Assembly: GCA_016432285.1 (NCBI GenBank)
Contig: CP066682.1
Coordinates: 252,273-288,932 of the forward strand
Length of the DNA: 36,660 nt
From: Candidatus Kaiserbacteria bacterium
GTDB taxonomy: Bacteria > Patescibacteriota > Minisyncoccia > Phycocordibacterales > UBA2100
Direction of reading: 5' to 3'
Shown: one piece after another, positions 521 to 27,862 of the stretch
Layout of the letters: each line of letters begins with the position of its first letter
Numbering within the stretch: position 1 is the stretch's first letter
Translations under genes and position numbers: made by a program
Notes under the pieces: generated by a model
Told to the model about the DNA's origin: nothing
The model's database searches: none
Seen by the model: the letters and a program-made list of their open reading frames with translations, nothing else

Positions 521-676
521 ATGTTCGAACCGAAAACACGGCTTACCTTCGGGAAACTTGATAAAAGTATACAGGAATTGAGGGCTATGTATAAAGCACA
601 TCCGGAGTGGTTTGAGGTGCCGAAACCAAAATCTATAAAGGGTAAGAACGAGGTGGATTACTCTATCGGATCTTAA
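521..676 (+). CDS. Possible 51-residue hypothetical protein
   Basis: An open frame beginning MFEPKTRLTFGKLDKSIQEL and ending at TAA 674-676, where it meets the hsdS stop convergently. The product would be soluble, basic and helix-rich, and I recognise no family. It starts 20 nt from the divergent transporter gene and runs into the AT-rich restriction-modification island. It could be a small island gene, a remnant of a gene broken by island insertion, or a chance frame. No ribosome binding site or -10 box was found, so confidence is low. Confidence 0.3.
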   Translation: MFEPKTRLTFGKLDKSIQELRAMYKAHPEWFEVPKPKSIKGKNEVDYSIGS

Positions 677-2382: not shown

Positions 2383-2386
2383 AAAC

Positions 2387-3913: not shown

Positions 3914-3915
3914 AA

Positions 3916-6156: not shown

Positions 6157-6179
6157 ATTGGTTCTAACTTGGACATCGG

Positions 6180-6198
6180 GCGGAGAGGGAGGGATTCG
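6180..6198. repeat. 19-bp copy of the tRNA-Ser 3' end (att-like)
   Basis: The 19 nt here (gcggagagggagggattcg) are identical to 6322-6340, which is the acceptor 3' strand and T-arm end of tRNA-Ser(GCU). The copies are in the same orientation, 142 bp apart. A partial 3'-tRNA duplication beside an AT-rich island is the classic footprint of site-specific integration. No integrase gene is present in the window. Confidence 0.8.
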
Positions 6199-6207
6199 GT
6201 CACGGAT

Positions 6208-6255
6208 AATTTTGCCTTGCAAAATTTCCTCGACCCCGACTCGGCGCTTTGCGCC
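6208..6255. other. Two short perfect hairpins between hsdR and tRNA-Ser
   Basis: 6208-6226 is an 8-bp stem (AATTTTGC / GCAAAATT, loop CTT). 6243-6255 is a 5-bp stem (GGCGC / GCGCC, loop TTT). They lie between the two 3'-tRNA copies. Function unknown; they could be remnants of an integration element or leader structures of the hsd operon. Confidence 0.5.
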
Positions 6256-12233: not shown

Positions 12234-13382
12234 ATGGCGTTCTCGCTCGGATCATTGCTACAGAAATTTTCCGGTTCGATCGGCAAGCGCGAGGGAAGCG
12301 TGCTCGGGATCGACGTCGGCGCGTCGAGTGCCAAGATCGTGCAGCTGCGCGCGTCGCGCGGCGCGGCGATCCTCGAAACCTACGGCGAGATTGCGCTCGG
12401 CCCCTACGGCAACCAGCCCATCGGCAAAGCCGTGAAGCTCTCACCCGAAAAGACGGCGCAGGCGCTCACCGATCTCATGAAAGAGGCCAACGTAACCGCC
12501 CGCTCGGGCGGCCTCTCGATTCCGTTTTCTTCGAGTCTCGTGTCGGTGCTTGATCTCCCCAAGGTCGACAAGGAGGCGCTGAAGCGCATGGTGCCGATCG
12601 AAGCGCGCAAATATATTCCGGTGCCGGTCTCCGAGGTAACGCTCGACTGGTTTGTGATCCCGCAGGAAGAAGGCGAGAAGAGCGCCTTTGATCGCGTCGC
12701 TCCCGAAGGCCCGCAAAAGCCGAAAGGTCAGGAGGTGCTCCTCGTCGCCATTCACAACGACACGCTCACGAATTTCCAGACCATCGCGCAGGCCGCCGAC
12801 ATCAAGATTGAGTTTTATGAAATCGAGATTTTCAGCGCGATCCGCTCGGTTTTGGGGCACGGGCTCGCGCCGGTGCTCGTCGTCGACCTCGGCGCCGCGA
12901 CCACCAAGATGTACGTGGTGGAGCGGGGCGTCGTGCGCTTCACGCACCTCGTTACTTCCGGCGGGCAGCAGATGACTGAGACGCTTGCACGCACGCTCGA
13001 ATGGGATTTCGAGAAGGCGGAGCGTATCAAGCGCGAGCGCGGCCTCAACGACAGCAACGCGTACTCGGCGGAGGAGAACGAGAAGATAAAATCGGCCATG
13101 TTATCAACACTGACGCGTGTGTTTTCAGAAGTAAATCGCGTACTATTGAGCTACGGGCAGCGATACAATAAGAATGTATCGCACGTCGTGTTGACGGGCG
13201 GCGGCGCATCGCTCCCGGGCTTGGCAGAGCAAGCGAAGCTCATGCTGAGCGCGGATGTCGAGATCGCGGATCCGTTCGCGCGGACAGAGGCGCCGGCATT
13301 CTTAGGAGACGTTTTGCGTGATATCGGTCCCGGCTTTTCCGTTTCCGTGGGGCTCGTCCTCCGAAAACTGAAGGGCGCATAA
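12234..13382 (+). CDS. pilM: Type IV pilus assembly protein PilM
   Basis: A 382-residue actin-like ATPase on the cytoplasmic face of the pilus machine; it binds the N-terminus of PilN. Motifs: GSVLGIDVGASSAKIVQL (phosphate 1), VLVVDLGAATTKMYVVERG (phosphate 2) and VVLTGGGASLPGLAEQ (adenosine), all in PilM order. PVSEVTLDWFVIPQ is also typical. It is first in the operon, with its own extended -10 promoter, and is followed 4 nt later by the PilN-like gene. Length matches the family. Confidence 0.95.
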   Translation: MAFSLGSLLQKFSGSIGKREGSVLGIDVGASSAKIVQLRASRGAAILETYGEIALGPYGNQPIGKAVKLSPEKTAQALTDLMKEANVTARSGGLSIPFSSSLVSVLDLPKVDKEALKRMVPIEARKYIPVPVSEVTLDWFVIPQEEGEKSAFDRVAPEGPQKPKGQEVLLVAIHNDTLTNFQTIAQAADIKIEFYEIEIFSAIRSVLGHGLAPVLVVDLGAATTKMYVVERGVVRFTHLVTSGGQQMTETLARTLEWDFEKAERIKRERGLNDSNAYSAEENEKIKSAMLSTLTRVFSEVNRVLLSYGQRYNKNVSHVVLTGGGASLPGLAEQAKLMLSADVEIADPFARTEAPAFLGDVLRDIGPGFSVSVGLVLRKLKGA

Positions 13383-13386
13383 CGAT

Positions 13387-14085
13387 ATGCCTACCAGCGG
13401 TCCACAGCCATCTTTTATACCCCGTGAGGCCCCCACCGTAGGGCAGGTTCACCGCGCGCAAGGGAACGCCCTCTCGGACCTCACCGCGCTCGTCTCGCTC
13501 GTGCTCTTCGTGGCCTCTCTCGCCCTCGCGGGCGGCGTGTTTTTGTACGATCAGTACCTGCAATCTTCGAGCGCCTCGAAGATCGACCAGCTCGAGCGCG
13601 CGAAAGCCGCCTTCGAGCCGACCCTGATTGAGGAACTGACGCGCCTCGATGACCGCATGCGCGCTGCGGGGGAGGTGCTCCAGCAGCACATCAGCCCATC
13701 GGCTTTTTTCCAGATGCTTGAAGCGAGCACCATCTCGACGGTCGCCTTTACCTCACTCGATTTCCAGGTCGTCGACAACGGCCGTATGACGGTCGACATG
13801 GACGGCGTGGCGGCGAGCGTCAACTCGATCGCGCTCCAGGCCGACGTCTTCTCCAAGGGCGGCATGGTCACGAACCCCATCTTTTCAAACATCGACCGCG
13901 AATCGGACGGCGTGCACTTCGATTTGAGCGCGTTCCTCAATCCGGTGGCGATCAACTACGCACAGCTCGTCTCCGGTGCTGCTGCGGCCTTCGGGGCGCA
14001 GCCGGCTCAAACTATCGAAACAGCGCCGGCGGAAACGCAAGACGCGGGAGCGATCGACCCGTTCCAGCCGGGTGCAACACAATAG
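13387..14085 (+). CDS. PilN-like pilus assembly protein
   Basis: A 232-residue bitopic protein with a short cytoplasmic N-terminus (~1-35), one membrane helix (~36-56, ALVSLVLFVASLALAGGVFL), then a coiled coil (SASKIDQLERAKAAFEPTLI) and a periplasm-side globular domain. Position between pilM and the PilO-like gene, and topology, make it the PilN equivalent. Overall similarity to classical PilN is low by eye and the N-terminal PilM-binding motif is not obvious. The tail (~200-232) is acidic and Ala/Pro/Gln-rich. Starts 4 nt after pilM with no Shine-Dalgarno. Confidence 0.75.
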   Translation: MPTSGPQPSFIPREAPTVGQVHRAQGNALSDLTALVSLVLFVASLALAGGVFLYDQYLQSSSASKIDQLERAKAAFEPTLIEELTRLDDRMRAAGEVLQQHISPSAFFQMLEASTISTVAFTSLDFQVVDNGRMTVDMDGVAASVNSIALQADVFSKGGMVTNPIFSNIDRESDGVHFDLSAFLNPVAINYAQLVSGAAAAFGAQPAQTIETAPAETQDAGAIDPFQPGATQ

Positions 14086-14086
14086 T

Positions 14087-14656
14087 ATGGTCAAACTCAT
14101 TCTCTCTATCGTCGGCCTCGGTCTTTCTGGAGTGATCTTCTTCCTCTACACGCAGCCCGCGTACGAGGGCGTGCGATCCGTGCGTGCGACGATCGGTCAG
14201 TATGATCAGGCTCTCACGAAGGCTACGGAGCTCCAGCAGCTGAAGCAGACGCTGCTCTCGCGTTACAACACCTTCAACCAGAGCGACATCGACCGCCTCC
14301 ACAAGCTCCTCCCGGATCACGTCGACAACGTCCGGCTGGTTCTCGACCTCGACTCGCTCGCCGGCCGACACGGTATGGCCTTGCAGAACGTCGTGATCAG
14401 CAATCCCGCGAGCGAGGAGCTCGACCCCGGTGTCATCGCCGCCATCGGCGCTTCCGGTGCGCGATACGATTCGCTCACGCTGAAGTTCTCCACGATCGGC
14501 TCCTACGAGGATTTCCTCGGCTTCCTCCAGGATCTCGAGACGTCGCTGCGCGTGGTGGATCTCGTGTCGCTCAACATCACGCGCGACTCACTTTCCTCCG
14601 ACCTCTCACCGCGGTACCGCTACGACATCACGATCCGCACCTACTGGCTCAAATAA
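14087..14656 (+). CDS. PilO-like pilus assembly protein
   Basis: A 189-residue bitopic membrane protein. Residues 2-20 are a membrane helix (ILSIVGLGLSGVIFFLYT), followed by a coiled coil (QALTKATELQQLKQTLLSRY) and a compact C-terminal ferredoxin-like domain with GSYEDFLGFLQDLETSLRVV, the usual PilO signature region. KLLPDHVDNVRLVLDLDSLA is also PilO-like. The ATG at 14087 is 1 nt after the PilN-like stop; a longer open frame upstream is an artefact of overlap. PilO pairs with PilN to align the motor and pilus base. Confidence 0.85.
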   Translation: MVKLILSIVGLGLSGVIFFLYTQPAYEGVRSVRATIGQYDQALTKATELQQLKQTLLSRYNTFNQSDIDRLHKLLPDHVDNVRLVLDLDSLAGRHGMALQNVVISNPASEELDPGVIAAIGASGARYDSLTLKFSTIGSYEDFLGFLQDLETSLRVVDLVSLNITRDSLSSDLSPRYRYDITIRTYWLK

Positions 14657-14659
14657 CGT

Positions 14660-15016
14660 ATGGGATTCTTTTCCGAACACAAAACACTTCTCATCACCGT
14701 CGTCGCGATCATTCTCGTGATTGGCGTCTGGTACGGCATCTCAAGCGACGCGCCCTCAAGCTCGCTCCTGACTTCGGAGAATGTCGGGGGCGCGGGCAGC
14801 GCCGAAGATCAGAATCTCGTCGAGACGCTCCTCCAGCTCCGCGCGGTCTCACTCTCGGGCGCGATCCTCGGCGATCCGGCTTTCTTGAGCCTTCAAGATT
14901 TCGGCACGCAGATCGTGCCGGAGCCGATTGGCCGCCCCAACCCCTTCGCGCCGCTTTTGCGCGGGCTTCAGTCGACCTCCACTTCCCGCGGCTCGCAACT
15001 CTTTCCGACGCGGTAA
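14660..15016 (+). CDS. Small pilus-operon membrane protein, PilP-like position
   Basis: A 118-residue protein with one N-terminal membrane helix (LLITVVAIILVIGVWYGI, ~9-26) and an extracytoplasmic tail of about 90 residues. The tail ends with FGTQIVPEPIGRPNPFAPLL. Such R-x-N-P-F segments recall the start of PilP's conserved region, and its place after PilO matches PilP, but the protein is much shorter and lacks the beta domain that binds the PilQ secretin. No pilQ follows, in keeping with a cell that may lack a conventional outer membrane. Function as an alignment-complex accessory is inferred. Confidence 0.65.
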   Translation: MGFFSEHKTLLITVVAIILVIGVWYGISSDAPSSSLLTSENVGGAGSAEDQNLVETLLQLRAVSLSGAILGDPAFLSLQDFGTQIVPEPIGRPNPFAPLLRGLQSTSTSRGSQLFPTR

Positions 15017-15029
15017 GGCACGAGGGCCT

Positions 15030-16715
15030 ATGGTCGCAGACGCAGCAGTGACGGACGTCCCCCGGCGAGAGCTCGGAGACAGCAAAATCCCGTACGACGT
15101 GCTCCGCTACATTCCGGAGGAATCAGCCACACACTATCGTCTCGCACCGCTTGGAGTCGTCGACGACGTGCTTGAGGTCGGCATGGTCGACCCCGACGAC
15201 ATCCAGGCTTTCGATGCCCTGAATTTCATCACGCGTGGCAGCGGCATGCCCTTTAAGGTCTACCAGATTTCAGAGGGAGATTTTGAGCGGATACAGAAGA
15301 TGTACCGCGGGCTCGGCGGCGAAGTGGATAAGGCGGTTACCGATCTCCAGACGGAGCAAAAAAAAGACAAGATCGTCGATGCCGACACGGCGCCGCTGGA
15401 TCTCGACGACCCGTCGCTTGGCGGTGCAGAGGAGATCGTCAAGAACATCCAGGAAGACGCGCCGACGATTAAGATCGTTTCGACGATCCTCCGGTACGCG
15501 ATCGACGGCAAAGCATCCGACATACACATCGAACCGCAAACGCAGGGCGTGCGCGTGCGGTACCGCGTCGACGGCGACCTGCACACGAGCGTCATACTGC
15601 CCATGAACACGCACCGCGCGCTCGTCGCGCGCGTCAAGGTGCTCGCCTCGATCCGTCTCGACGAGCAGCGCAAGCCGCAGGATGGCCGCTTCTCCGCTTC
15701 CATCGACGGCCGTGCGATCGACTTCCGCGTTTCCACCTTTCCTTCGTACAACGGCGAAAAGGTCGTAATCCGTATTCTCGACCGTGATCAGGGTTACATT
15801 CCGCTCGACAAGATCGGTCTCTCGGAGCGAAATCTCATGCTCTTGCGGAAGGCCGTCGCGAGGCCGCACGGGCTCGTGCTCATATCCGGCCCGACTGGCA
15901 GCGGAAAGTCGACGACACTCTACTCCATGCTTGCGGAGGTGGACCGGGAGCACAAAAATGTGCTCTCGCTCGAAGACCCGGTCGAGTACTTTATCGAAGG
16001 AGTCACGCAGTCGCAGGTGCGTCCGGAGATCGGTTACTCCTTCGCTTCGGGACTACGCACCACCCTCCGTCAGGACCCGGACGTCATCATGGTGGGTGAA
16101 ATCCGCGACGGCGAGACGGCGAAGCTTGCCATTCAGGCGGCCCTGACAGGACATCTCGTGCTCTCCACCATCCACACCAACGATGCGGTCGGCACGGTAC
16201 CTCGTCTCATCGACATGGGCGTCGAGCCGTACCTCATCCCGCCAGTGCTAATTCTTTCCATGGCGCAGCGCCTCACGCGCACGCTCGCAGAAGGATCGGG
16301 CGCGGAAGTGGAGATCACCGCGAGCGACCGGCGGGCGATCGAGGCGCAGCAGAGCTCGCTCCCGCAGAAATACCGCTTTCCAGTGCCGAAAACCGCGTGG
16401 GAGCCCACGCGCACCGCCACTTCCGCCACCGGCATGCGAGGCCGCATGGCTGTCTTCGAGGTACTCGAAATGTCGTCGGAGATCGAGAAGATCGTCCTCG
16501 ATAATCCGGTGGAGTCGAAGCTCTGGAGCGCCGCGCGCTCGCAAGGCATGCTCACCATGCAGGAAGATGCCATGCTGAAAGCCTTCAACAAACAGATTCC
16601 GTTCTCGGAAGTCCACGCGCTCTCCTCGCTCCTTCTCTCGGGAGACGAGGAGATGCCGATTGCCGACAAAAAGCAGGGCGGAGGCGGAGAGGCACCGCCA
16701 GAAGAGATCGTATGA
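15030..16715 (+). CDS. pilB: Type IV pilus extension ATPase PilB
   Basis: A 561-residue hexameric ATPase that powers pilus extension. The start at 15030 gives an N-terminal MshEN/T2SSE_N domain (~15-110: SKIPYDVLRYIPEESATHYR). The motor domain has Walker A GPTGSGKSTT (~287), the Asp box DPVEYFIEGVTQSQVRPEIG, a Walker B-like DPDVIMVGEIRDGETA (~349) and His box LTGHLVLSTIHTNDA. The cysteines of the usual zinc-binding C-x-x-C...C-x-x-C element are all missing; the region reads TRTATSATGMRGRMAVFEVL (~460-475). The final ~20 residues are acidic and Gly-rich. The stop overlaps the next start (ATGA). Confidence 0.96.
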   Translation: MVADAAVTDVPRRELGDSKIPYDVLRYIPEESATHYRLAPLGVVDDVLEVGMVDPDDIQAFDALNFITRGSGMPFKVYQISEGDFERIQKMYRGLGGEVDKAVTDLQTEQKKDKIVDADTAPLDLDDPSLGGAEEIVKNIQEDAPTIKIVSTILRYAIDGKASDIHIEPQTQGVRVRYRVDGDLHTSVILPMNTHRALVARVKVLASIRLDEQRKPQDGRFSASIDGRAIDFRVSTFPSYNGEKVVIRILDRDQGYIPLDKIGLSERNLMLLRKAVARPHGLVLISGPTGSGKSTTLYSMLAEVDREHKNVLSLEDPVEYFIEGVTQSQVRPEIGYSFASGLRTTLRQDPDVIMVGEIRDGETAKLAIQAALTGHLVLSTIHTNDAVGTVPRLIDMGVEPYLIPPVLILSMAQRLTRTLAEGSGAEVEITASDRRAIEAQQSSLPQKYRFPVPKTAWEPTRTATSATGMRGRMAVFEVLEMSSEIEKIVLDNPVESKLWSAARSQGMLTMQEDAMLKAFNKQIPFSEVHALSSLLLSGDEEMPIADKKQGGGGEAPPEEIV

Positions 16716-17119
16716 TGGCAGAAACAAACGGCGAGAAAAAGAGCGTGCTTTTCGTCGACGACGATAAATTTCTCGCAGACATGTACGGCCTCAAGTTCAC
16801 GAACGGCGGTTTTACGGTGCAAGCATGTCTTTCTGTCGCCGACGCGCTTGAAGCCCTCCGGAGCGGCTTCCAGGCCGACGCGATCGTCTTCGATCTTGTG
16901 ATGCCTGAGCGCGATGGCTTCTCTTTTCTCCAGGCGCTTCGCGACGAGAAGCTCGCGCCGCAAGCGGTTCGCATCGCTCTCACGAATCAGAGCGATGACT
17001 CCGAGAAGAAAAAAGCGGAGGAGCTCGGCGTCGATCGCTACGTGGTGAAGGCGAGTATGATCCCTTCGGAAGTGGTCGCGCTCGTCGCGCAAGAGATTGG
17101 CGCTCGAAAGAAAAAATAA
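16712..17119 (+). CDS. Single-domain response regulator in the pilus operon
   Basis: A 135-residue CheY-like receiver with no output domain. D16-D17 (LFVDDDKF) bind Mg2+, D61 (AIVFDLVMPERDGF) is the expected phosphoacceptor, T in IALTNQS is the switch residue, and the conserved Lys lies in YVVKAS. It starts inside the last codons of pilB (a second ATG three bases later is an alternative). Its placement between pilB and pilT suggests control of extension versus retraction, like PilG/PilH. No histidine kinase is in the window. Confidence 0.93.
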   Translation: MMAETNGEKKSVLFVDDDKFLADMYGLKFTNGGFTVQACLSVADALEALRSGFQADAIVFDLVMPERDGFSFLQALRDEKLAPQAVRIALTNQSDDSEKKKAEELGVDRYVVKASMIPSEVVALVAQEIGARKKK

Positions 17120-17165
17120 GTTATCCCTGTGCACAGTCGGTGCGCCGCTTCTTAGAATCACGGGT

Positions 17166-17171
17166 TAGAAT
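17166..17171 (+). promoter_or_regulatory. -10 box upstream of pilT
   Basis: TAGAAT, 6 nt before the pilT ATG, in the only sizeable gap (58 nt) of the first half of the pilus operon. It could start a separate pilT transcript. Confidence 0.45.
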
Positions 17172-17177
17172 GCTTCC

Positions 17178-18239
17178 ATGGAGTACGCCGCGACCTTGAA
17201 GAAGTACATCAACGTCCTCCTCCACGAAGGCGGATCCGACCTGCACTTTTCCGCAGGCGCTCATCCCACCATACGCGCGGCGGGAGTTCTCGCGCCCATG
17301 CTGAAGGAGCCGGTCCTCACGGCCGAGGACGCGCTGGAGTTCGCCAAAGTGCTCCTCGCACCGGACCAGCTCAAGCGCTTTCTTGTAGAAAAGGAGGCCG
17401 ATTTTGCGTACGAAAGTGAAGACAAGATTCGCTTCCGCGGCAACGCCTTCTACCAGCGGGGATCCGTCGCGATCGCGCTGCGACTCATCCCGAAGCAAAT
17501 CCGCAGCATCACGGAGTTGAATCTCCCCGATATCCTCACGTCGTTTGCCCGTAAGTCGCAGGGATTTTTTCTTGTCGTGGGTCCCGTGGGGCAGGGCAAG
17601 ACCACCACGCTCGCCGCGCTCGTCGATCTCATCAACACCGAGCGCATGGAGCACATCGTAACGATCGAGGATCCGATCGAATATATTTTCGAGCCGAAGC
17701 AATCTCTCATCGACCAGCGCGAAGTGCGCATCGATACGAAAGATTTCCCCGCGGCACTCCAGTCGGCATTTCGCCAGGACATCGACGTTTTGCTCGTGGG
17801 AGAGATGCGCGGCCCCGAGACCATGTCGGCCGCAGTGACGGCGGCTGAAACAGGCCACCTTGTGCTCTCCACGTTGCACACCAACAACGCTTCGCAGACG
17901 ATCGACCGTATCATCGACACCTTCCCTTCATCGCAGCAGGATCAGATCCGCTTGCAGCTTGCCTCGTCGCTCGCAGGGATCTTCAGCCAACGCCTCATCC
18001 CGCGCATCTCAGGCGGCCTCATCCCCGCGTACGAGCTCCTCATCAACAACAAGGCGATTGCCAATCTCATCCGCGAGAAGCGTACGCACGAGATCCCCAC
18101 AGTCATCGAGACCGGCTCGACCGAAGGCATGATCGATATGAACCGCTCGCTTGCGGAGCTCGTCGCGCGCGGCGAGATCACCGTGGAGAGCGCCTACCAG
18201 TACTCGCTCAATCCAAACGTCTTGCAGAAGCTCCTCTGA
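17178..18239 (+). CDS. pilT: Type IV pilus retraction ATPase PilT
   Basis: A 353-residue hexameric ATPase that depolymerises pili. It has the PilT N-terminal PAS-like domain (LHFSAGAHPTIRAAGVL), a Walker A variant GPVGQGKTTT at ~135-142 (the family norm is GPTGSGKS/TT), Asp box IVTIEDPIEYIF, Walker B-like DIDVLLVGEMRGPETM and His box ETGHLVLSTLHTNNA. The C-terminal ANLIREKRTHEIPTVIETGS corresponds to the PilT-specific retraction motif AIRNLIRE. Intact and of normal length. It is followed 6 nt later by pilC. Confidence 0.95.
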   Translation: MEYAATLKKYINVLLHEGGSDLHFSAGAHPTIRAAGVLAPMLKEPVLTAEDALEFAKVLLAPDQLKRFLVEKEADFAYESEDKIRFRGNAFYQRGSVAIALRLIPKQIRSITELNLPDILTSFARKSQGFFLVVGPVGQGKTTTLAALVDLINTERMEHIVTIEDPIEYIFEPKQSLIDQREVRIDTKDFPAALQSAFRQDIDVLLVGEMRGPETMSAAVTAAETGHLVLSTLHTNNASQTIDRIIDTFPSSQQDQIRLQLASSLAGIFSQRLIPRISGGLIPAYELLINNKAIANLIREKRTHEIPTVIETGSTEGMIDMNRSLAELVARGEITVESAYQYSLNPNVLQKLL

Positions 18240-18245
18240 TTTCGT

Positions 18246-19454
18246 ATGGCTCTCTTTTCGTATCGAGCGGTCGATCCGGACGGCGCCGAACGCGCGGGTA
18301 CGATCGACGCGGTCAACATCGACGTGGCGATCGCGGCGCTTCAGCGCCGCGGGCTCGTGATTTCCGCCATCAATCCGCAAGAGGCGAAAGGTTCGGCGTG
18401 GGGCCGCATCAGCCTCTTTGATCGAATCACCAACGCCGACGTCGTGATGATCTCGCGCCAGATCACCACGCTCTTCGAGGCGCAGGTTTCGGCGCTCCGA
18501 GCCTTCCGCCTCCTCGCCGCCGAAGCGCGCACCCCGAAGCTCGCGGCAAAGCTCACCGAAGTGGCCAACGACATCCAGAGCGGCTCCACCATCTCCGCCG
18601 CGCTGGGGAGGCACCCCGACGTTTTCAGTATTTTCTACGTCAACATGGTGCGCGCCGGCGAGGAGGCGGGTAAGCTCGACGAAACCTTCTCGTACCTCGC
18701 AGACTATCTCGACCGCAACTACGAGATCACCCAAAAAGCGCGCAACGCGCTCATCTATCCCGCCTTCATCACGTTCACCTTCCTCGTCGTCATGGGATTG
18801 ATGATGACGCTCGTGATTCCGAACCTTGCCGACATGCTCGGCGAAGTGGGGCAGGAGGTCCCGGTCTACACCAAGGTCGTGATCGGGATCAGCAACTTCC
18901 TCGTGCGCTACATCCTGCTCTTCATGCTCCTTCTCGTCGCGGCGATCTTTTTCCTCTACCGCTTCGCACTCACGCCGCAGGGTAAGGAGATGTACTCGCG
19001 TGCGCGCATGCAGATCCCCGCGATCGGCGGCATCTACCAGAAACTCTTTCTCTCGCGTGTCGCCGACAACCTCTCGACTATGCTCAAAAGCGGCGTGCAA
19101 GTCCTCCGGGGGCTCGAGATTACCGGGAGCGTCGTCGACGACGCGGTGTATGAGCGCGTGATCGCTGCGGCTGCCGCCGACGTGAAGGGGGGATTGCCGG
19201 TTTCCGAAGCCTTCCGCAAGCATCCCGAGATACCGGGGATCGTGGTCGCCATGCTCAAAATCGGCGAAGAGACCGGCAACATGGGGCAGATACTCGAGAC
19301 GATGGCCCGCTTCTACCGGCGCGAGGTCAACAACGCCGTCGACACGCTGGTCGGACTCATCGAGCCCTTCCTCATCGTCTTTTTGGCGGTCGGCGTGGCC
19401 ATGCTGCTTGCGTCGGTGCTGATTCCGATCTACAACATCGCCTCGGGATTCTAA
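18246..19454 (+). CDS. pilC: Type IV pilus inner-membrane platform protein PilC
   Basis: A 402-residue polytopic protein with two T2SSF domains (~65-190 and ~270-395) and three main membrane regions (~165-190, ~215-240, ~370-395). Diagnostic segments: MALFSYRAVDPDGAERAGTI, MISRQITTLFEAQVSALRAF, VNMVRAGEEAGKLDETFSYL and MLKIGEETGNMGQILETMAR. PilC couples the PilB and PilT motors to pilin movement. It follows pilT after 6 nt with no Shine-Dalgarno. Confidence 0.95.
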   Translation: MALFSYRAVDPDGAERAGTIDAVNIDVAIAALQRRGLVISAINPQEAKGSAWGRISLFDRITNADVVMISRQITTLFEAQVSALRAFRLLAAEARTPKLAAKLTEVANDIQSGSTISAALGRHPDVFSIFYVNMVRAGEEAGKLDETFSYLADYLDRNYEITQKARNALIYPAFITFTFLVVMGLMMTLVIPNLADMLGEVGQEVPVYTKVVIGISNFLVRYILLFMLLLVAAIFFLYRFALTPQGKEMYSRARMQIPAIGGIYQKLFLSRVADNLSTMLKSGVQVLRGLEITGSVVDDAVYERVIAAAAADVKGGLPVSEAFRKHPEIPGIVVAMLKIGEETGNMGQILETMARFYRREVNNAVDTLVGLIEPFLIVFLAVGVAMLLASVLIPIYNIASGF

Positions 19455-19498
19455 GCAGGGTTGTCCACAGGCCTGCTGTCGTTTGTGAACGGTGTCGC

Positions 19499-19504
19499 TA
19501 TAAT
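19499..19504 (+). promoter_or_regulatory. -10 box of the major pilin
   Basis: A consensus TATAAT, 7 nt before the ATG at 19512. It predicts a leaderless pilin mRNA and decides between two possible starts: an ATG at 19503 lies inside the box itself. Confidence 0.6.
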
Positions 19505-19511
19505 GATTCGC

Positions 19512-20018
19512 ATGAAGAAGAACGCACAGAGGGGTTTTACCTTGATCGAATTACTCGTCGTTATCGCCATTATCGGCATCCTTTCGTCGGTCGTGCTCGC
19601 CTCCTTGAACAGCGCGCGCAAGAAGGGGCGCGATGCCCGTCGCATCGCCGACATTAAGCAGCTCCAGCTTGCGCTTGAGCTCTACTACGACGCCCACCCC
19701 TCCACCGGCTACCCCACGACTGCCCAGTACGGCTCAGCTCTCGTCTCCGAAGGCTTCATTGCTTCGATCCCCACCGACCCACAGGGCAACGTCGCCTACT
19801 CTTACGCGGCGCTCGGCTCCGGCACGAGCTGCACCAGCTACCACCTCGGCGCTTCGCTTGAGGTCACCAACAACTCCGCATTCAACGCCGACGCCGACGG
19901 CGCCGATTCCTCGGGCCTGTGCACCGGCGGCGGCGACGACTTTGCGGGAACTGATACCGCGAAATGCAATTCTGTCACTGACACGTGGGGTGTAGGTTGC
20001 TACGACGTCAAACCGTAA
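19512..20018 (+). CDS. Type IV major pilin-like protein
   Basis: A 168-residue prepilin. The start MKKNAQRG/FTLIELLVVIAI gives a short positively charged leader, a prepilin peptidase site after Gly8 and the essential Glu5 of the mature protein. The hydrophobic alpha1 helix continues to about residue 30. ARRIADIKQLQLALELYYD is the usual CPR/Gram-positive pilin stretch after it. Cysteines in the C-terminal half could form a disulfide loop. Its own TATAAT box, a position after pilC and a strong hairpin downstream suggest a separately and strongly transcribed major subunit. The C-terminal domain is rich in Asp/Gly/Ser. Confidence 0.9.
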   Translation: MKKNAQRGFTLIELLVVIAIIGILSSVVLASLNSARKKGRDARRIADIKQLQLALELYYDAHPSTGYPTTAQYGSALVSEGFIASIPTDPQGNVAYSYAALGSGTSCTSYHLGASLEVTNNSAFNADADGADSSGLCTGGGDDFAGTDTAKCNSVTDTWGVGCYDVKP

Positions 20019-20051
20019 TCGAACGATTAAAATAGTCATCTGCTTCGTTAT

Positions 20052-20075
20052 GGGCCCCGCTGGAAAGCGGGGCCC
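20052..20075 (+). terminator. 9-bp GC hairpin after the pilin gene
   Basis: GGGCCCCGC / GCGGGGCCC with a 6-nt loop, 33 nt after the pilin stop and just ahead of the pilD promoter. The T-tract is missing, so it may attenuate transcription or stabilise the pilin mRNA. Confidence 0.6.
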
Positions 20076-20086
20076 TCGTGCTCGCT

Positions 20087-20092
20087 TATAAT
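20087..20092 (+). promoter_or_regulatory. -10 box of pilD
   Basis: Consensus TATAAT, 9 nt before the ATG at 20102. Predicts a transcript with 0-3 untranslated bases. Confidence 0.6.
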
Positions 20093-20101
20093 TGAAGACA
20101 C

Positions 20102-20902
20102 ATGACTGCTGTTTTTTTTGCACTCTTCGGCCTCATCGTCGGCAGTTTTCTCAATGTGCTGATCCTGCGGTGGGGGAAGGAGGGTATCGGCGGCCGAAGT
20201 CGCTGCCCTGTCTGTAAGCGCGAGCTCGCGTGGTTTGATCTCATTCCGATCTTTTCGTGGATTTTCCTGCGGGGCCGCTGCCGCACATGTGGCGCCAGGA
20301 TTTCGATACAGTATCCACTCGTTGAGGGCGCGACGGCACTTACCTTCGCGCTCATCGGCGCCTCTCCGGTGCCGCTTACGCTCCAGCTTTTCGCACTCCC
20401 CATCGCTGCTCTTTTGATCGCGATTGCCGTGTACGATCTCTACCACACGATCATTCCCGATGTGTGGGCATATGTGGCGGCCGTCCTTTCCCTCGCCGCG
20501 GCGCTCACGGCGCCTGCCGCGTCGGACAACGCACTCGAGATCGTCCTCTCCGGGCCGATCGCCGCGGCGCCGCTCTTTTTGTTGTGGCTCGTCTCCCGCG
20601 GTAGGTGGATGGGACTCGGCGACGGGAAACTCGCGCTCACGCTGGGATGGCTCCTCGGTTTCCCCGCAGGATTGATCGCCGTCTTTTTTGCGTTCGTGCT
20701 TGGCGCGTTGGTCAGCGTGCCGCTGCTGCTTCTGTCGCATGCACCCGCCTCCGGATTTACCCCCACCGCTGATTCCGAAAATCGCCGTCCGAGGTTTACA
20801 ATGAAAAGCGAGATCCCATTCGGACCGTTTCTCATCGCAAGCTGCTTCATACTATGGTTCATGCAGATGTACGGCGTCCCCCTTCCGCTCACGCTCTTCT
20901 AG
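20102..20902 (+). CDS. pilD: Prepilin peptidase / N-methyltransferase PilD
   Basis: A 266-residue polytopic aspartic protease that cuts prepilin leaders and methylates the new N-terminus. The N-terminal methyltransferase-type domain has two C-x-x-C pairs (C35/C38 in RCPVCKREL and C60/C63 in RCRTCGA), the zinc site of the full-length form. Catalytic aspartates are in AVYDLYHTIIPD and the G-x-G-D motif MGLGDGKLALTLGWLLGF. About eight hydrophobic helices are visible. It processes the pilin and pseudopilins encoded on both sides. The 3' end overlaps the next gene by 49 nt. Confidence 0.95.
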   Translation: MTAVFFALFGLIVGSFLNVLILRWGKEGIGGRSRCPVCKRELAWFDLIPIFSWIFLRGRCRTCGARISIQYPLVEGATALTFALIGASPVPLTLQLFALPIAALLIAIAVYDLYHTIIPDVWAYVAAVLSLAAALTAPAASDNALEIVLSGPIAAAPLFLLWLVSRGRWMGLGDGKLALTLGWLLGFPAGLIAVFFAFVLGALVSVPLLLLSHAPASGFTPTADSENRRPRFTMKSEIPFGPFLIASCFILWFMQMYGVPLPLTLF

Positions 20903-21480
20903 GGCGCGACCACGAATCCGGCTTCACGCTGATCGAGCTCATCGTCGTTACCGCGATTCTTACCCTCATATCCTCGCTCATCCTCGTCAGCAACAACCGT
21001 TTCGGCGGGCGGATCCTCCTCGAAAATCTTGCCTACGATGTGGCGCTTTCGATACGCGAGGCGCAGGTCTTCGGTATCTCGGTACGGCAGTTCGGCGCGG
21101 GAAATTTCGGAGCGGGTTACGGCGTGCAGTTTACGCGGGTAGAAGAAGGTGGCGAGCCATCGACTACCTTCGTCCTCTTTGCCGACGCCGTGAGCGCCAA
21201 CGGCATTTACGATCAGGGTGAGATTGTTGGCAGCCCGTACCTCATGGAGCGCGGCTTTCATGTGGCCGACCTCTGCGCGCGCGGCAGCGGCGCGGAGGCC
21301 GAGACGTGCGGCCTCTCGCGGCTCGACATGCTTTTCAAACGCCCGGAGCCCGACGCCTACATCCGCATCAACGGCAATCTCGGCTCGCTCCAAGAGCGCG
21401 GCAGAATAGTGCTCGAATCGCCCCGGGGAGACCGGGTCAGCGTCGTCGTTGAGATTACCGGACAGATCTCCGTCGAATAG
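20854..21480 (+). CDS. Type IV pseudopilin (GspH/FimT-like)
   Basis: A 208-residue prepilin-like protein. The ATG at 20854, inside the end of pilD, gives a 23-residue leader ending HESG/FTLIELIVVTAILTLISS, with Glu5 present; the leader is longer than that of the other pilins. The mature domain (LENLAYDVALSIREAQVFGI, GAGYGVQFTRVEEGGE, RGRIVLESPRGDRVSVVVEI) has the GspH/FimT pattern. It is probably a minor pilin that primes pilus assembly. The 49-nt overlap implies translational coupling to pilD. Confidence 0.85.
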   Translation: MVHADVRRPPSAHALLGRDHESGFTLIELIVVTAILTLISSLILVSNNRFGGRILLENLAYDVALSIREAQVFGISVRQFGAGNFGAGYGVQFTRVEEGGEPSTTFVLFADAVSANGIYDQGEIVGSPYLMERGFHVADLCARGSGAEAETCGLSRLDMLFKRPEPDAYIRINGNLGSLQERGRIVLESPRGDRVSVVVEITGQISVE

Positions 21481-21481
21481 T

Positions 21482-22045
21482 ATGACAAAGCACGACCGCG
21501 GATTTACGCTCATTGAAATGATCATCGCGGTCGCGCTCTTTGCCACCGTGATGCTGATCGCGGTGGGTTCTCTCCTCGCGCTCGTTGGGGCCAACAGGAA
21601 GGCGCAGGCCTTGCAGAGCGTGATGAACAACCTCAACATCGCGCTCGATGGGATGGTGCGCTCGATCCGCATGGGATCGGACTACCACTGCGGGCTCGGC
21701 ACGTATACGGCTCCGCTCGAGTGCCCGACGGGCGATACCATCTTCGCATTCGAAGCCTTCGGCGGAAGCGCCGCCAACCCGACCGACCAGTGGATCTACA
21801 AATACGACCCGGACACCAAGCGCATCTATAAATCAGAAGACGCAGGCTCGCACCTCTACGCCATCACCGCGCCGTCGGTCGTCATCGACAACATGAAGTT
21901 TTACGTCGTCGGCACCGATCGCGGAGACACGACACAGCCGAAGGTGGTGATCACGATCAAGGGTACGGCGGGGGTGCCGGGCACCAAAACAGAAACGACC
22001 TTTTCCATGCAGGCGACGGCTGTGCAGCGACTCCTCGATCTATGA
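21482..22045 (+). CDS. Type IV pseudopilin (PilW/GspJ-like)
   Basis: A 187-residue minor pilin. The start at 21482 gives MTKHDRG/FTLIEMIIAVAL, a 7-residue leader and Glu5. ALDGMVRSIRMGSDYHCG, FAFEAFGG and QWIYKYDPDTKRIYKSED are like the GspJ/PilW class. The ATG is 1 nt after the previous stop, and its own stop overlaps the next start (ATGA). No Shine-Dalgarno is seen, so translation is probably coupled. Confidence 0.85.
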   Translation: MTKHDRGFTLIEMIIAVALFATVMLIAVGSLLALVGANRKAQALQSVMNNLNIALDGMVRSIRMGSDYHCGLGTYTAPLECPTGDTIFAFEAFGGSAANPTDQWIYKYDPDTKRIYKSEDAGSHLYAITAPSVVIDNMKFYVVGTDRGDTTQPKVVITIKGTAGVPGTKTETTFSMQATAVQRLLDL

Positions 22046-22614
22046 TGCACGAACAAACGAAACGGATCGAACGTATCGCCGATATGAAAGTGGTACGAGG
22101 CTTCACGCTCATCGAAACGCTCGTCGCCGTATCGCTGCTTTCGGTGGCGATCGTCGCGCCCATGTCGCTCACCGGCCGGAGCCTCGCTGCGGCATACTAC
22201 GCGCGCGATCAGGTAACCGCATTCCACCTCGCGCAGGAAGGTATCGAATCCGTGCGGCACGCGCGCGACCACAACATCCTCCTCAACGCCCTCGGCACGC
22301 CCGCAGACCTGCTCGCCGGCATTCCCTCTACGACGGGCGACCCCTTTACCGTCGACACGACCAACAACGACGCGATGGCGCTCTGCAATCCGCTCGAAGC
22401 CTGCCCGGCGCTTCGGACGAATGGCGAGCTCTACGGATACAACGAAGACTGGAATTCGACACGCTTTACGCGGAGCATCAGCGCAGTTTTTGTAGACGGC
22501 TCCACCGACGAAGTGAAAGTGAACGTCGTGGTCTCGTGGCAATCCGGTGCCTTCCAGAGCCGCTCAGTTACGATTTCGGAAAACCTCTACCGCTGGGTGC
22601 GCGAGATCGAATAG
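22042..22614 (+). CDS. Type IV pseudopilin (PilV/GspI-like)
   Basis: A 190-residue minor pilin. The ATG at 22042 gives a 19-residue leader before G/FTLIETLVAVSLLSVAI; an internal ATG at 22084 would give the shorter MKVVRG/FTLIE leader and is a fair alternative. Glu5 is present. HLAQEGIESVRHARDHNIL is the typical PilV/GspI sequence after the membrane helix. It overlaps its upstream neighbour by 4 nt and is followed 1 nt later by the PilX-like gene. Confidence 0.85.
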   Translation: MMHEQTKRIERIADMKVVRGFTLIETLVAVSLLSVAIVAPMSLTGRSLAAAYYARDQVTAFHLAQEGIESVRHARDHNILLNALGTPADLLAGIPSTTGDPFTVDTTNNDAMALCNPLEACPALRTNGELYGYNEDWNSTRFTRSISAVFVDGSTDEVKVNVVVSWQSGAFQSRSVTISENLYRWVREIE

Positions 22615-22615
22615 T

Positions 22616-23125
22616 ATGAACATCTTCAACCAATCGGCGCAGAGACAGAGAGGATTCACGCTATTGCTTGCGGCACTGGTCGCTTCGGTCGTGCTCGCAC
22701 TCGGCGCCGCCATTTTCAAACTGGCGCAAAAAGAGATTACGCTCTCGTCGATCGGCCGCGATTCGCAATACGCTTTCTACGCGGCCGACACCGGCGCCGA
22801 GTGCGCGCTCTTTTGGGATCTTCGGTACGGATACTTCGCCACGAGCTCCCCCCCAGGCGTTACTCCCGAGTGCGACGCGCAGGCGATCATCGCAAGCGGG
22901 CGCCTCGCCACGTTTCCCTACACGATGACCTTCCAATTCGCCCCGAGCGGCTTTTGCACCAACGTCGCGGTGGAGAAGACGAAGGATGCGCAGAACGCGA
23001 TCCGCACCGTGGTGCGGGCCGACGGCTACAACGTCATCGTGCCGGAAGGCAATGCTGCCTTGTGCGATTCCATGATCGCCGCCGCGCCGCGCGCCCTCCA
23101 GCGATCCGTCGAGCTCCATTACTAG
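22616..23125 (+). CDS. PilX-like minor pilin lacking Glu5
   Basis: A 169-residue protein with leader MNIFNQSAQRQRG and the processing site G/FTLLLAALVASVVLALG. The residue at position 5 of the mature form is Leu rather than the Glu found in the other four pilins. YAFYAADTGAECALFWD corresponds to the A-A-x-x-G-x-E-x-A block that follows the first helix in PilX-type proteins. Lack of Glu5 is also the GspK pattern for the subunit at the pilus tip, so a tip role is possible. It is the last gene of the pilus cluster. Confidence 0.8.
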   Translation: MNIFNQSAQRQRGFTLLLAALVASVVLALGAAIFKLAQKEITLSSIGRDSQYAFYAADTGAECALFWDLRYGYFATSSPPGVTPECDAQAIIASGRLATFPYTMTFQFAPSGFCTNVAVEKTKDAQNAIRTVVRADGYNVIVPEGNAALCDSMIAAAPRALQRSVELHY

Positions 23126-25458
<2,333 letters not shown>

Positions 25459-25464
25459 TCCTGT

Positions 25465-26877
25465 ATGGATCTTACGAAATTGACGATCGCAAGCGCTCGG
25501 AAGGCCCTCGACGCGAAAGAGTATTCCGCGCTCGACCTCACCAAGGCGTACATCGATCAGATCTCACAAAAGGACGCCGCTCTCCACGCCTACCTGGAGG
25601 TGTGGGAGAAGAGTGCGAAAGACGAGGCCAAGCGAGCCGACGCTCGAATCGCAGCGGGGGAGGCGCTCTCTCTCACCGGCATACCGCTTGCGATCAAGGA
25701 CAACATTTTGATCGAGGGGCGCGCAGCGAGCTCGGCTTCGAAGATTCTCGAAAACTATCGCGCACCCTACGACGCCACGGTGATTGAAAGAATGAAGCAG
25801 GAGGACGCGGTCTTTCTCGGGCGAACCAACATGGACGAATTCGCCATGGGAAGCTCGACCGAAAATTCGGCGTACGGCCCTACCCGCAACCCGATCGATA
25901 CCGCGCGCATCCCAGGCGGCTCCTCCGGCGGATCGGCGGCAGCGGTGGCCGCGCACATGGCGCTCGCTGCGCTTGGGAGCGACACGGGCGGATCGATTCG
26001 CCAGCCCGCAGCACACACTGGCCTTGTCGGCCTGAAGCCGACGTACGGCGCCGTTTCCCGCTACGGACTCATGGCCATGGGCTCGTCGCTCGATCAGATC
26101 GGACCACTTACCAAGACAGTCGACGATTCGAAACTACTTTTTGAAGCGATCCGCGGGTACGACGCTTCTGACAGCACGTCGCTGAAGGAAAGTGCGAAGG
26201 ATTTTAAGAAACCTCGAGTGATCGGAGTGCCTCGCGCCTTTCTCGAAAGTGGCGTCGATGCCGATCTCCTCACCGTCTTCGAGAAGACGCTGGGCGCGCT
26301 GCGCGAAAAAGGCTACGAAATCCGGGACATCGACATGCCGACGCTCCCATACGGGCTCGCCGTCTACTACGTCGTCATGCCGGCAGAGGCTTCGACCAAC
26401 CTCGCGCGCTTTGACGGCATTCGGTACGGCCTCTCGGAGCCGGCGCCGACGATCGGCGAGGTCTACGCGAAGACGCGGGGGAAAGGATTTGGCCCGGAAG
26501 TGCGGCGTCGCATTCTCGTGGGTACCTTCGTGCTCTCCGCCGGCTACGCCGATGCGTACTATCGCAAAGCTCGCGCGGTACGTGCGGGAATCACCCGGGA
26601 GTTTGCCGATGCTTTTCAAAGTGTGGATGCGATTGCGGTACCCACGACGCCAGCGCCGGCCTTCAAGTTTGGCGAGAAGACGTCGGACCCGCTCGCCATG
26701 TATGCCGAAGATATTTTTTCGGTGCCGGTGAATCTCGCAGGAGTACCCGCGATCTCCGTGCCGTGCGGGCATGTGGCGCGAGAGAGTTCGCAGCTTCCAA
26801 TCGGATTTCAGATCATCGCGGAGCACGGGCGGGAGGAGACACTGTTTGCAATCGGGAAAGACGTCGAGGCAGCGTAG
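25465..26877 (+). CDS. gatA: Asp-tRNA(Asn)/Glu-tRNA(Gln) amidotransferase subunit A
   Basis: A 470-residue amidase-signature glutaminase that delivers ammonia to GatB. The catalytic Ser-cisSer-Lys triad is intact: K78 in GIPLAIKDNILIEG, S153 in IPGGSSGGSAAAVAA and S177 in GSDTGGSIRQPAA. GLVGLKPTYGAVSRYGLMAM, SLDQIGPLTK and the late PTTPAPAFKFGEK blocks are typical of GatA. Length is normal. An AATAAT lies 5 nt before the ATG but is weak; co-transcription with gatC is likely. Confidence 0.97.
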   Translation: MDLTKLTIASARKALDAKEYSALDLTKAYIDQISQKDAALHAYLEVWEKSAKDEAKRADARIAAGEALSLTGIPLAIKDNILIEGRAASSASKILENYRAPYDATVIERMKQEDAVFLGRTNMDEFAMGSSTENSAYGPTRNPIDTARIPGGSSGGSAAAVAAHMALAALGSDTGGSIRQPAAHTGLVGLKPTYGAVSRYGLMAMGSSLDQIGPLTKTVDDSKLLFEAIRGYDASDSTSLKESAKDFKKPRVIGVPRAFLESGVDADLLTVFEKTLGALREKGYEIRDIDMPTLPYGLAVYYVVMPAEASTNLARFDGIRYGLSEPAPTIGEVYAKTRGKGFGPEVRRRILVGTFVLSAGYADAYYRKARAVRAGITREFADAFQSVDAIAVPTTPAPAFKFGEKTSDPLAMYAEDIFSVPVNLAGVPAISVPCGHVARESSQLPIGFQIIAEHGREETLFAIGKDVEAA

Positions 26878-26975: not shown

Positions 26976-26981
26976 TATAAT
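26976..26981 (+). promoter_or_regulatory. -10 box of the HEPN-like membrane protein gene
   Basis: Consensus TATAAT, 6 nt before the ATG at 26988. This fixes the start choice; an open frame extends upstream to 26952 but would contain the promoter. Confidence 0.6.
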
Positions 26982-26987
26982 TTCGGG

Positions 26988-27683
26988 ATGCCAGGCGATC
27001 AGACGCTCATCGGTGCGCTGCCGAGCGGCTTTGAGTTCTTCGGTGATCTCCTTTTCAAGTGGGTGCCGGCGAGCGTGATCGCGGTGAGTCAGAGCGTCTC
27101 CGGCAGCGAGTCGCCGTACTCAATGCTGACGGATCCGGTCTCGGCCGTTACCGTGCCCTCGCTCCTCGCGCAGACGAGCGCACCCGGCACGTACGACGCG
27201 CTCCTTGGCGCGTGGTACACGTGGACCGTCCTTTCTTTCGCGCTCTCGATCCCGTTTCTTGCGGTCGTTATCTACACGTTCATCCGAATCATGCAGATCC
27301 GCACCGCGGAGCGGCGCGCCGTGGCCGCCGCACAGCGGACCGTCGCCGCAGAAGACGTACCGCGTACGCAATTGAGATGGAATCGCGTGCTCGATCAGGC
27401 TTCGTCGTCCTCGCCCGAGGGCTGGCGGCTCGCGATCCTCGAAGCCGACATCATGCTGAACGAGTTACTCGACCTGCAAGGCTACAAGGGTGAGACGATG
27501 GCCGACAAAATGAAGCGCGTCGAACGGGGCGACTTTAATACCATCGACGATGCGTGGGAAGCGCACAAGGTGCGCAACCGCGTCGCGCACGAGGGGAGCG
27601 CGCACGAGCTCAGTCCGCGCGAAGTGCGCCGCATCATCAACCTCTACGAGCGGGTGTTTAAGGAATTCAAATATATCGAATAG
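26988..27683 (+). CDS. Membrane-anchored protein with a C-terminal HEPN-like R-x4-H motif
   Basis: A 231-residue protein with no name I recognise. Residues ~1-70 are weakly hydrophobic and probably extracytoplasmic. One strong membrane helix follows (~75-100, VLSFALSIPFLAVVIYTFIR), then a basic coiled stretch (RTAERRAVAAAQRTVAAEDV). The C-terminal ~100 residues are all-helical: WRLAILEADIMLNELLDLQG, DAWEAHKVRNRVAHEGSAHE, and PREVRRIINLYERVFKEFKY. RNRVAH fits the R-N-x-x-x-H catalytic motif of HEPN ribonucleases, with suitable flanking helices. The domain would lie in the cytoplasm. It has its own TATAAT promoter and a 12-bp terminator downstream, so it is monocistronic. RNase activity is inference. 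Confidence 0.7.
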   Translation: MPGDQTLIGALPSGFEFFGDLLFKWVPASVIAVSQSVSGSESPYSMLTDPVSAVTVPSLLAQTSAPGTYDALLGAWYTWTVLSFALSIPFLAVVIYTFIRIMQIRTAERRAVAAAQRTVAAEDVPRTQLRWNRVLDQASSSSPEGWRLAILEADIMLNELLDLQGYKGETMADKMKRVERGDFNTIDDAWEAHKVRNRVAHEGSAHELSPREVRRIINLYERVFKEFKYIE

Positions 27684-27776: not shown

Positions 27777-27824
27777 CCTGCAAGTCCCGACGTGAAGCAC
27801 ACTTCACTCCCCTCGACAAAATGC

Positions 27825-27853
27825 AAAAAGTCCGCCATAGAGGCGGACTTTTT
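27825..27853. terminator. Bidirectional rho-independent terminator
   Basis: A perfect 12-bp stem AAAAAGTCCGCC / GGCGGACTTTTT with loop ATAGA. It has T-runs on both strands and lies between the convergent HEPN-like gene and the initiator tRNA. Confidence 0.9.
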
Positions 27854-27862
27854 GCGATTTTG

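Follow-up and report, generated by a model that had tools for sequence, protein, structure and literature searches.

The locus and its gene content

The window, i.e., the whole analysed stretch of 36,660 nucleotides from a Candidatus Kaiserbacteria genome, contains a gene, here termed X, for a predicted membrane-anchored HEPN-domain protein of 231 amino acids, flanked by gatA upstream and by a tRNA-Met gene downstream. The genes and signals at the locus are as follows:

23150–25168, plus strand: ligA, NAD-dependent DNA ligase (TIGR00575, 748 bits)
25165–25458, plus strand: gatC (PF02686, 32.8 bits, cut-off 23)
25465–26877, plus strand: gatA, conserved upstream neighbour of X (TIGR00132, 569 bits, cut-off 481.1)
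26976–26981, plus strand: perfect −10 box TATAAT, 6 nt before the ATG (sequence and conservation)
26988–27683, plus strand: X, 231 amino acids (open reading frame, homologues and structure model)
27822–27856, plus strand: two-way terminator hairpin, 139 nt after the stop codon of X

The reading frame of X begins with an ATG at 26988 and its stop codon ends at 27683. Mechanical calling of open reading frames (ORFs) placed the start at an upstream GTG (26952); the ATG was chosen because M1 is common to the alignment and the −10 box lies 6 nt upstream of it. According to the neighbour table, ligA is an upstream neighbour in near relatives as well. Elsewhere in the window, positions 12234–23125 hold ORFs that by eye resemble a type IV pilus operon (PilM-like, PilB, PilT, PilC, pilins and prepilin peptidase), and on the minus strand (673–6222) there are ORFs resembling, by eye, a type I restriction-modification system, the S-like one carrying an extra C-terminal stretch of ~190 amino acids.

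A TATAAT- or TATACT-type box ends 6–7 nt before the ATG in 17 of 21 X genes from the genus and its near relatives, whereas 10 of 93 further ORF starts, called mechanically in these loci, have one at this position. A conserved −10 box right before the ATG points to a leaderless mRNA whose first nucleotide is the A of the ATG or one beside it, hence X is predicted to possess its own leaderless-type promoter in this genus. Leaderless mRNAs may be common in the genus. The initial annotation had assigned X a consensus promoter and terminator of its own and had noted no adjacent antitoxin. The −10 box is indeed perfect; an acceptable −35 match was not found, and a promoter scan reported 0 promoters here, without any −35/−10 pair. 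The terminator stands, and the hairpin may also serve the convergent tRNA-Met gene. Likewise, gatA and tRNA-Met flank X with no toxin-antitoxin partner, and no MNT nucleotidyltransferase was found beside it among the window neighbours.

Membrane anchor and topology

The protein can be divided into the following regions:

26988–27215, plus strand: N-terminal region, predicted outside (alignment, K/R balance)
27216–27284, plus strand: membrane helix, about residues 77–99 (hydropathy over homologues; long helix 66–120 in the model)
27366–27680, plus strand: cytoplasmic HEPN-like domain, residues 127–231 (AlphaFold model, VIA-align)
27447–27449, plus strand: D154 in helix 2, invariant (106/106)
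27564–27590, plus strand: H193-x2-R196-N197-x3-H201, motif of the HEPN catalytic type at the end of helix 3 (conservation counts)

By hydropathy, a membrane helix precedes the HEPN domain in 104 of 107 homologue ORFs (L087, L091 and L143 have no clear one). Lysine and arginine residues are more numerous after than before this helix in 95 of the 104, equal in 4 and reversed in 5, and this balance places the C-terminal domain in the cytoplasm, in agreement with the single membrane helix and cytoplasmic helical domain originally proposed. The full-length model of X shows a second helix at residues 10–38, the nature of which is uncertain. In the alignment, the outer part varies in length and content, and it may comprise just a few residues. 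TSP3 repeats (PF18884, 52.9 bits) are found in the N-terminal part of one homologue (L048), which is consistent with an outside location. In L021 and L028, the outer part seemed by eye to hold SH3-like repeats; Pfam did not confirm them, and they have been discarded.

Fold and conserved motif of the cytoplasmic domain

AlphaFold modelled full-length X with a mean pLDDT of 84.1, most blocks of the domain reaching 90–97, and the domain alone (105 residues) with a pLDDT of 93.9 and a pTM of 0.86; in the numbering of the domain model, the helices span 2–12, 17–37, 60–79 and 84–100, plus an insert helix at 45–50. When compared with known structures by VIA-align, the domain returned HEPN/MtlR proteins in rows 1–20, headed by 2hsb (Z 11.4, rmsd 2.1, 100 residues) and including HepT of MntA-HepT (Z 10.7), YutE (Z 8.8) and MtlR (Z 8.4), while the first unrelated row had a Z of 7.9; the full-length model gave the same picture. 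The best HEPN rows of Foldseek (E 0.28–0.39) were not significant, and middling Z values are readily scored by helical, or four-helix, bundles. The case for the fold is therefore made by the grouping of HEPN rows at the top of the VIA-align list together with the motif; on these models, a HEPN-like fold is supported.

The motif reads VRNRVAHEG (residues 195–203), and RNxxxH is present in 96 of 96 X loci, which bears out the original recognition of RNRVAH as a HEPN R-N-x-x-x-H motif. Among 107 distinct homologue sequences, drawn from 142 loci across the phylum, H193 is conserved in 107/107, R196 and N197 each in 106/106 and H201 in 106/107, making the motif the most conserved part of the protein. 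The lone homologue in which the motif His is lost, with Arg instead (L134, 2043–2570), has no gatA or gatB nearby. Thus, neither a non-HEPN fold nor poor conservation of the Arg and His residues, the two outcomes named at the outset as speaking against a HEPN protein, was found. In HEPN enzymes, as described in the survey by Anantharaman et al. (PMC3710099), it is the Arg and His of the motif that are used to cut RNA.

Further hallmarks of HEPN domains can be recognized in X. The model is a four-helix up-down bundle within the range of ~100–120 residues (with the Foldseek E values not being significant); R196 and H201 lie in helix 186–205, as expected for an Rx4-6H motif at the end of helix 3; the motif Arg is followed by a polar residue of the N, D or H type, namely N197; helix 2 (143–164) carries conserved acidic residues, D154 and E152, the latter position being E or D in 92 of 106 sequences; and the frequent insert between helices 2 and 3 is represented by a short helix (171–176). 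An Ex3[KR] signature is missing, since neither E152-A-D-I-M156 nor D154-I-M-L-N158 offers a K or R at +4; this context is, according to the survey, typical of many HEPN families but not universal (PMC3710099).

A new family below all cut-offs

Pfam, NCBIfam, PHROGs and PADLOC gave nothing over cut-off for the HEPN part of X or its homologues, and PDB sequence searches returned nothing meaningful. Sub-threshold Pfam hints were most frequently to HEPN_Swt1 (PF18731; 9 of 22 homologues, best E 0.0028), followed by HEPN_RiboL-PSP (4 of 22, best E 0.011). X of the window itself scored 14.5 bits with HEPN_RiboL-PSP (cut-off 28.4) and did not match Swt1; the homologue L091 reached 17.5 bits with Swt1 (cut-off 27.5) and L028 reached 17.2 bits with RiboL-PSP (cut-off 28.4). 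DUF4145 did not appear for X of the window or among the 25 families shown for the 22 homologues. With PADLOC, X of the window was without a match, and the 22 homologues matched four families with one member each, among them a weak match to a CARF-HEPN model (E 0.016). Foldseek against viral models yielded no significant match (best row A0A482IIS2, TMq 0.71), and neither plasmid records, queried with the window domain, nor phage records, queried with the L088 protein, gave a match at E 0.01. X is a new HEPN family that lies under every Pfam and NCBIfam cut-off, and a description of it was not found in the literature searched on HEPN proteins in connection with Patescibacteria, the candidate phyla radiation (CPR) or GatCAB, or on gatB and amidotransferase in the CPR. 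A CPR-wide study reports 106 families enriched in the CPR, most of them poorly annotated, and finds membrane helices in 76 (PMC6744442).

Distribution and inheritance

X is a single-copy gene in its own genome of 859 kb and, with that genome counted, occurs in 35 of 41 close genomes. The named neighbours of this genome are mostly Candidatus Kaiserbacteria records. In the class sample it was found in 261 of 285 genomes, i.e., in 250 with profile A2 and in 11 of the remaining 35 with the broader profile A5, one of these 11 being weak (E 2.3e-4). In the phylum sample, A2 (E 1e-4) detected X in 220 and A5 (E 1e-3) in 231 of 379 genomes; outside the class, many genomes of the phylum gave no match to X although gatA is nearly universal (363/379). 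Across the sampled genomes X is mostly single-copy. Several phylum genomes outside the class have two matches to the X profile, and one locus (L135:5643–6001) contains, beyond gatB, a weak second HEPN-like ORF without RNxxxH.

Over 87 loci, sequence distances of X and gatA are correlated (Mantel r 0.76, with 0 of 1000 permutations as high), from which we infer that X has been inherited vertically, unlike a mobile toxin. We regard X as a vertically inherited core housekeeping gene of the phylum.

Linkage to gatA and gatB

GatCAB converts Glu-tRNA(Gln) to Gln-tRNA(Gln) and Asp-tRNA(Asn) to Asn-tRNA(Asn). In a set of 96 loci, with some genomes counted twice, gatA lies upstream of X on the same strand in 91; in four of the other five loci the end of the contig cuts the upstream sequence short, and in L058 a histidine-kinase-like gene is found instead. 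The designation of X as monocistronic conceals this position directly after gatA. Where the places of both genes are listed (86 genomes), 71 genomes have X on the strand of gatA and no more than 7 kb downstream of it, 58 of them at a distance of up to 1 kb, and 15 do not. Counted by family label, the linkage holds for 46 of 55.

X is usually encoded beside one or both of gatA and gatB, and five arrangements of these genes were seen. The first is gatC-gatA-X with gatB elsewhere, as in the own genome (gatB at C1:792847–794274); elsewhere in the class, too, there are loci with gatA-X and no gatB in the flank covered. The second, gatA-X-gatB with overlapping or nearly overlapping genes, is found in L085, L088–L090, L092–L094, L112–L117 and others, including other classes. 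In the third, a cyclophilin-type peptidyl-prolyl isomerase gene (e.g., L135:2431–3189, L144:2467–3216) is inserted to give gatA-cyclophilin-X-gatB, in some cases with an extra small gene (L135–L139, L141, L142, L144). The fourth is X-coaE-gatB with gatA elsewhere (L125, L126, L130), and the fifth X-gatB (L132). Among ten loci with X away from gatA, four have gatB no more than 640 nt downstream and six have neither gene (L127, L128, L129, L131, L133, L134). A gene of ~190–220 amino acids, similar among loci, precedes X in L125–L128, L130 and L132, where gatA is elsewhere; four scanned members had no Pfam match at 1e-4.

X thus resides in the gat cluster, as is to be looked for in a GatCAB subunit or partner, neighbourhood alone being no proof of joint function. 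The promoter of its own in the genus, the separate gatB in the own genome and the six loci with neither gene count against a coupling. Since many genomes possess gatA and no X (of the 148 genomes in the phylum sample that are X-negative, 135 have gatA), GatCAB can work without X.

Joint absence of the two genes deserves caution. Both profiles miss X in 24 of the 285 class genomes; 13 of the 24 are also without gatA, and 11 of the 13 retain gatB (G054, G128, G301, G045, G071, G081, G090, G138, G154, G212, G227). GlnRS (glnS) was not detected over cut-off in the 45 genomes tested, among them all 13 without X and gatA; these 45 genomes should, consequently, depend on GatCAB. With gatB kept and no glnS over cut-off, the co-loss is more likely due to gaps in the assemblies where gatA and X lie together, but three of these 11 genomes are rated 100% complete. 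Co-loss was, therefore, rejected as proof of functional dependence, and the lower frequency of missing gatA in X-positive than in X-negative genomes of the phylum sample (3/231 versus 13/148; Fisher p 0.0009) carries the same caveat that linked genes are lost together at assembly gaps. In G042, G229, G294, G404 and G526, the gatA matches contain one in-frame stop (TAA or TAG).

Proposed function

The invariant active site, the membrane anchor and the lasting linkage to GatCAB suggest a membrane-held RNase that acts with the amidation step. Our preferred reading, held with moderate confidence, is that X is a HEPN RNase, tethered to the membrane and coupled to the amidation of tRNA, where RNase activity, substrate and GatCAB contact are all putative. 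Behind a short or variable outer part, a single predicted membrane helix would hold the HEPN domain facing the cytoplasm. The latter is most likely an active, metal-independent endoribonuclease using D154, H193, R196, N197 and H201, and probably acts as a dimer, by analogy to other HEPN enzymes. X would work jointly with the GatCAB step of tRNA charging, be it by physical or by regulatory contact; its likeliest job would be the cutting or trimming of RNA at the inner membrane face, with tRNA as the first suspect. Digestion of tRNA and of an mRNA has been reported for HEPN toxins (PMC11586414). The gat context suggests a role of X in protein synthesis, not in defence.

A narrower version, tentative and on balance unlikely, is that X keeps a check on Glu-tRNA(Gln) and Asp-tRNA(Asn) and cuts tRNA left unamidated by GatCAB, e.g., when imported glutamine is short. 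If true, this would make X an extra conserved component of amidation in Patescibacteria, through which the accuracy of translation would depend, at the membrane, on the supply of nutrients.

Among the alternatives, it is doubtful, yet worth weighing, that X is a non-catalytic membrane adaptor, which would use its HEPN domain to bind tRNA or GatCAB and to keep the amidation complex at the membrane, with no cutting of RNA. The tight gat linkage would suit such a role, and an uncontrolled core RNase would pose a toxicity problem, no antitoxin gene having been seen. Where PMC3710099 treats motif-less HEPN domains, these are regarded as probably RNA-binding; a non-catalytic role is, however, tied there to the loss of the motif, whereas in X the motif is what is conserved best.

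We also regard it as improbable that X serves mRNA turnover in general, as a membrane RNase comparable to RNase Y or RNase E, with the gat linkage reflecting only joint expression with genes of translation or an old neutral gene order. The anchor with the domain inside, the leaderless-type promoter in the genus and the lineages in which X is away from gatA fit this explanation, as does the proposal in PMC3710099 that there are HEPN proteins in the membrane which act in RNA processing at its inner face. Against it, the linkage extends over most family labels and has outlasted several changes of gene order, including those that leave X near gatB and not gatA, a persistence which we judge to exceed what neutral order would lead one to expect at such depth.

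Finally, it is very improbable that X acts in defence or as part of a toxin-antitoxin system, or as a sensor of host contact along the lines of the outside signal suggested by the initial annotation: while HEPN domains are common in such systems (PMC3710099) and one homologue gave the weak CARF-HEPN match, X is a mostly single-copy, vertically inherited core gene linked to GatCAB, its context and the PADLOC, plasmid and phage searches all speak against toxin or defence, an MNT partner and the Tyr of the type VII motif RX4HXY are missing (H201-E202-G203), and the outer part is not conserved, so that sensing of an outside signal in an episymbiotic life is unsupported.

As regards the wider meaning of the preferred reading, that of an RNase coupled to amidation, HEPN RNases have been met above all in toxins and defence, and X is a near-universal, mostly single-copy gene in a class with very small genomes. 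If X is an RNase, it is a candidate core factor of RNA processing or tRNA quality control in a little-understood phylum, and a hypothetical protein of hundreds of sampled genomes would thereby acquire a function that is concrete and testable.

Comparison with known systems

Membrane HEPN proteins as a kind have been known since 2013, when membrane-bound HEPN proteins and stimulus-dependent RNA decay were proposed (Anantharaman et al., PMC3710099). The main text of that article makes no mention of GatA, GatB or tRNA amidotransferase. With the Abi2/SWT1-type HEPN proteins described in that article (nearest Pfam model HEPN_Swt1, PF18731), X shares a single transmembrane helix, a C-terminal HEPN domain inside and Rx4H; it differs in lying under the Pfam cut-off, in lacking a conserved globular N-terminal domain and in being a phylum core gene linked to gatCAB. 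DUF4145-type proteins, having a transmembrane segment with a WP signature, likewise appear there as membrane-bound HEPN proteins proposed to act in stimulus-dependent RNA decay (PMC3710099), whereas DUF4145 is absent from the matches of X of the window and from the 25 families shown for 22 homologues.

The HepT toxins of type VII HEPN/MNT systems (PDB 6m6w, 7bxo, 5yep, 7ae8, 8xeh) are alike in fold (Z up to 10.7), have Rx4H in common with X and, by report, digest tRNA. In contrast to them, X is without an MNT partner and without a Tyr after the His, which in the RX4HXY motif of type VII is the site of AMPylation (PMC11586414), and it has a membrane anchor and vertical inheritance. In the AF0298-like family, as described in PMC3710099, the motif His is typically missing and another one is present. 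Its representative 2hsb is the best structural match to X, yet is only 10% identical.

RNase Y and RNase E are membrane-bound and cleave RNA at the inner membrane face, with folds and active sites unrelated to HEPN. Their likeness to X in cleaving RNA at this face holds if X is a nuclease.
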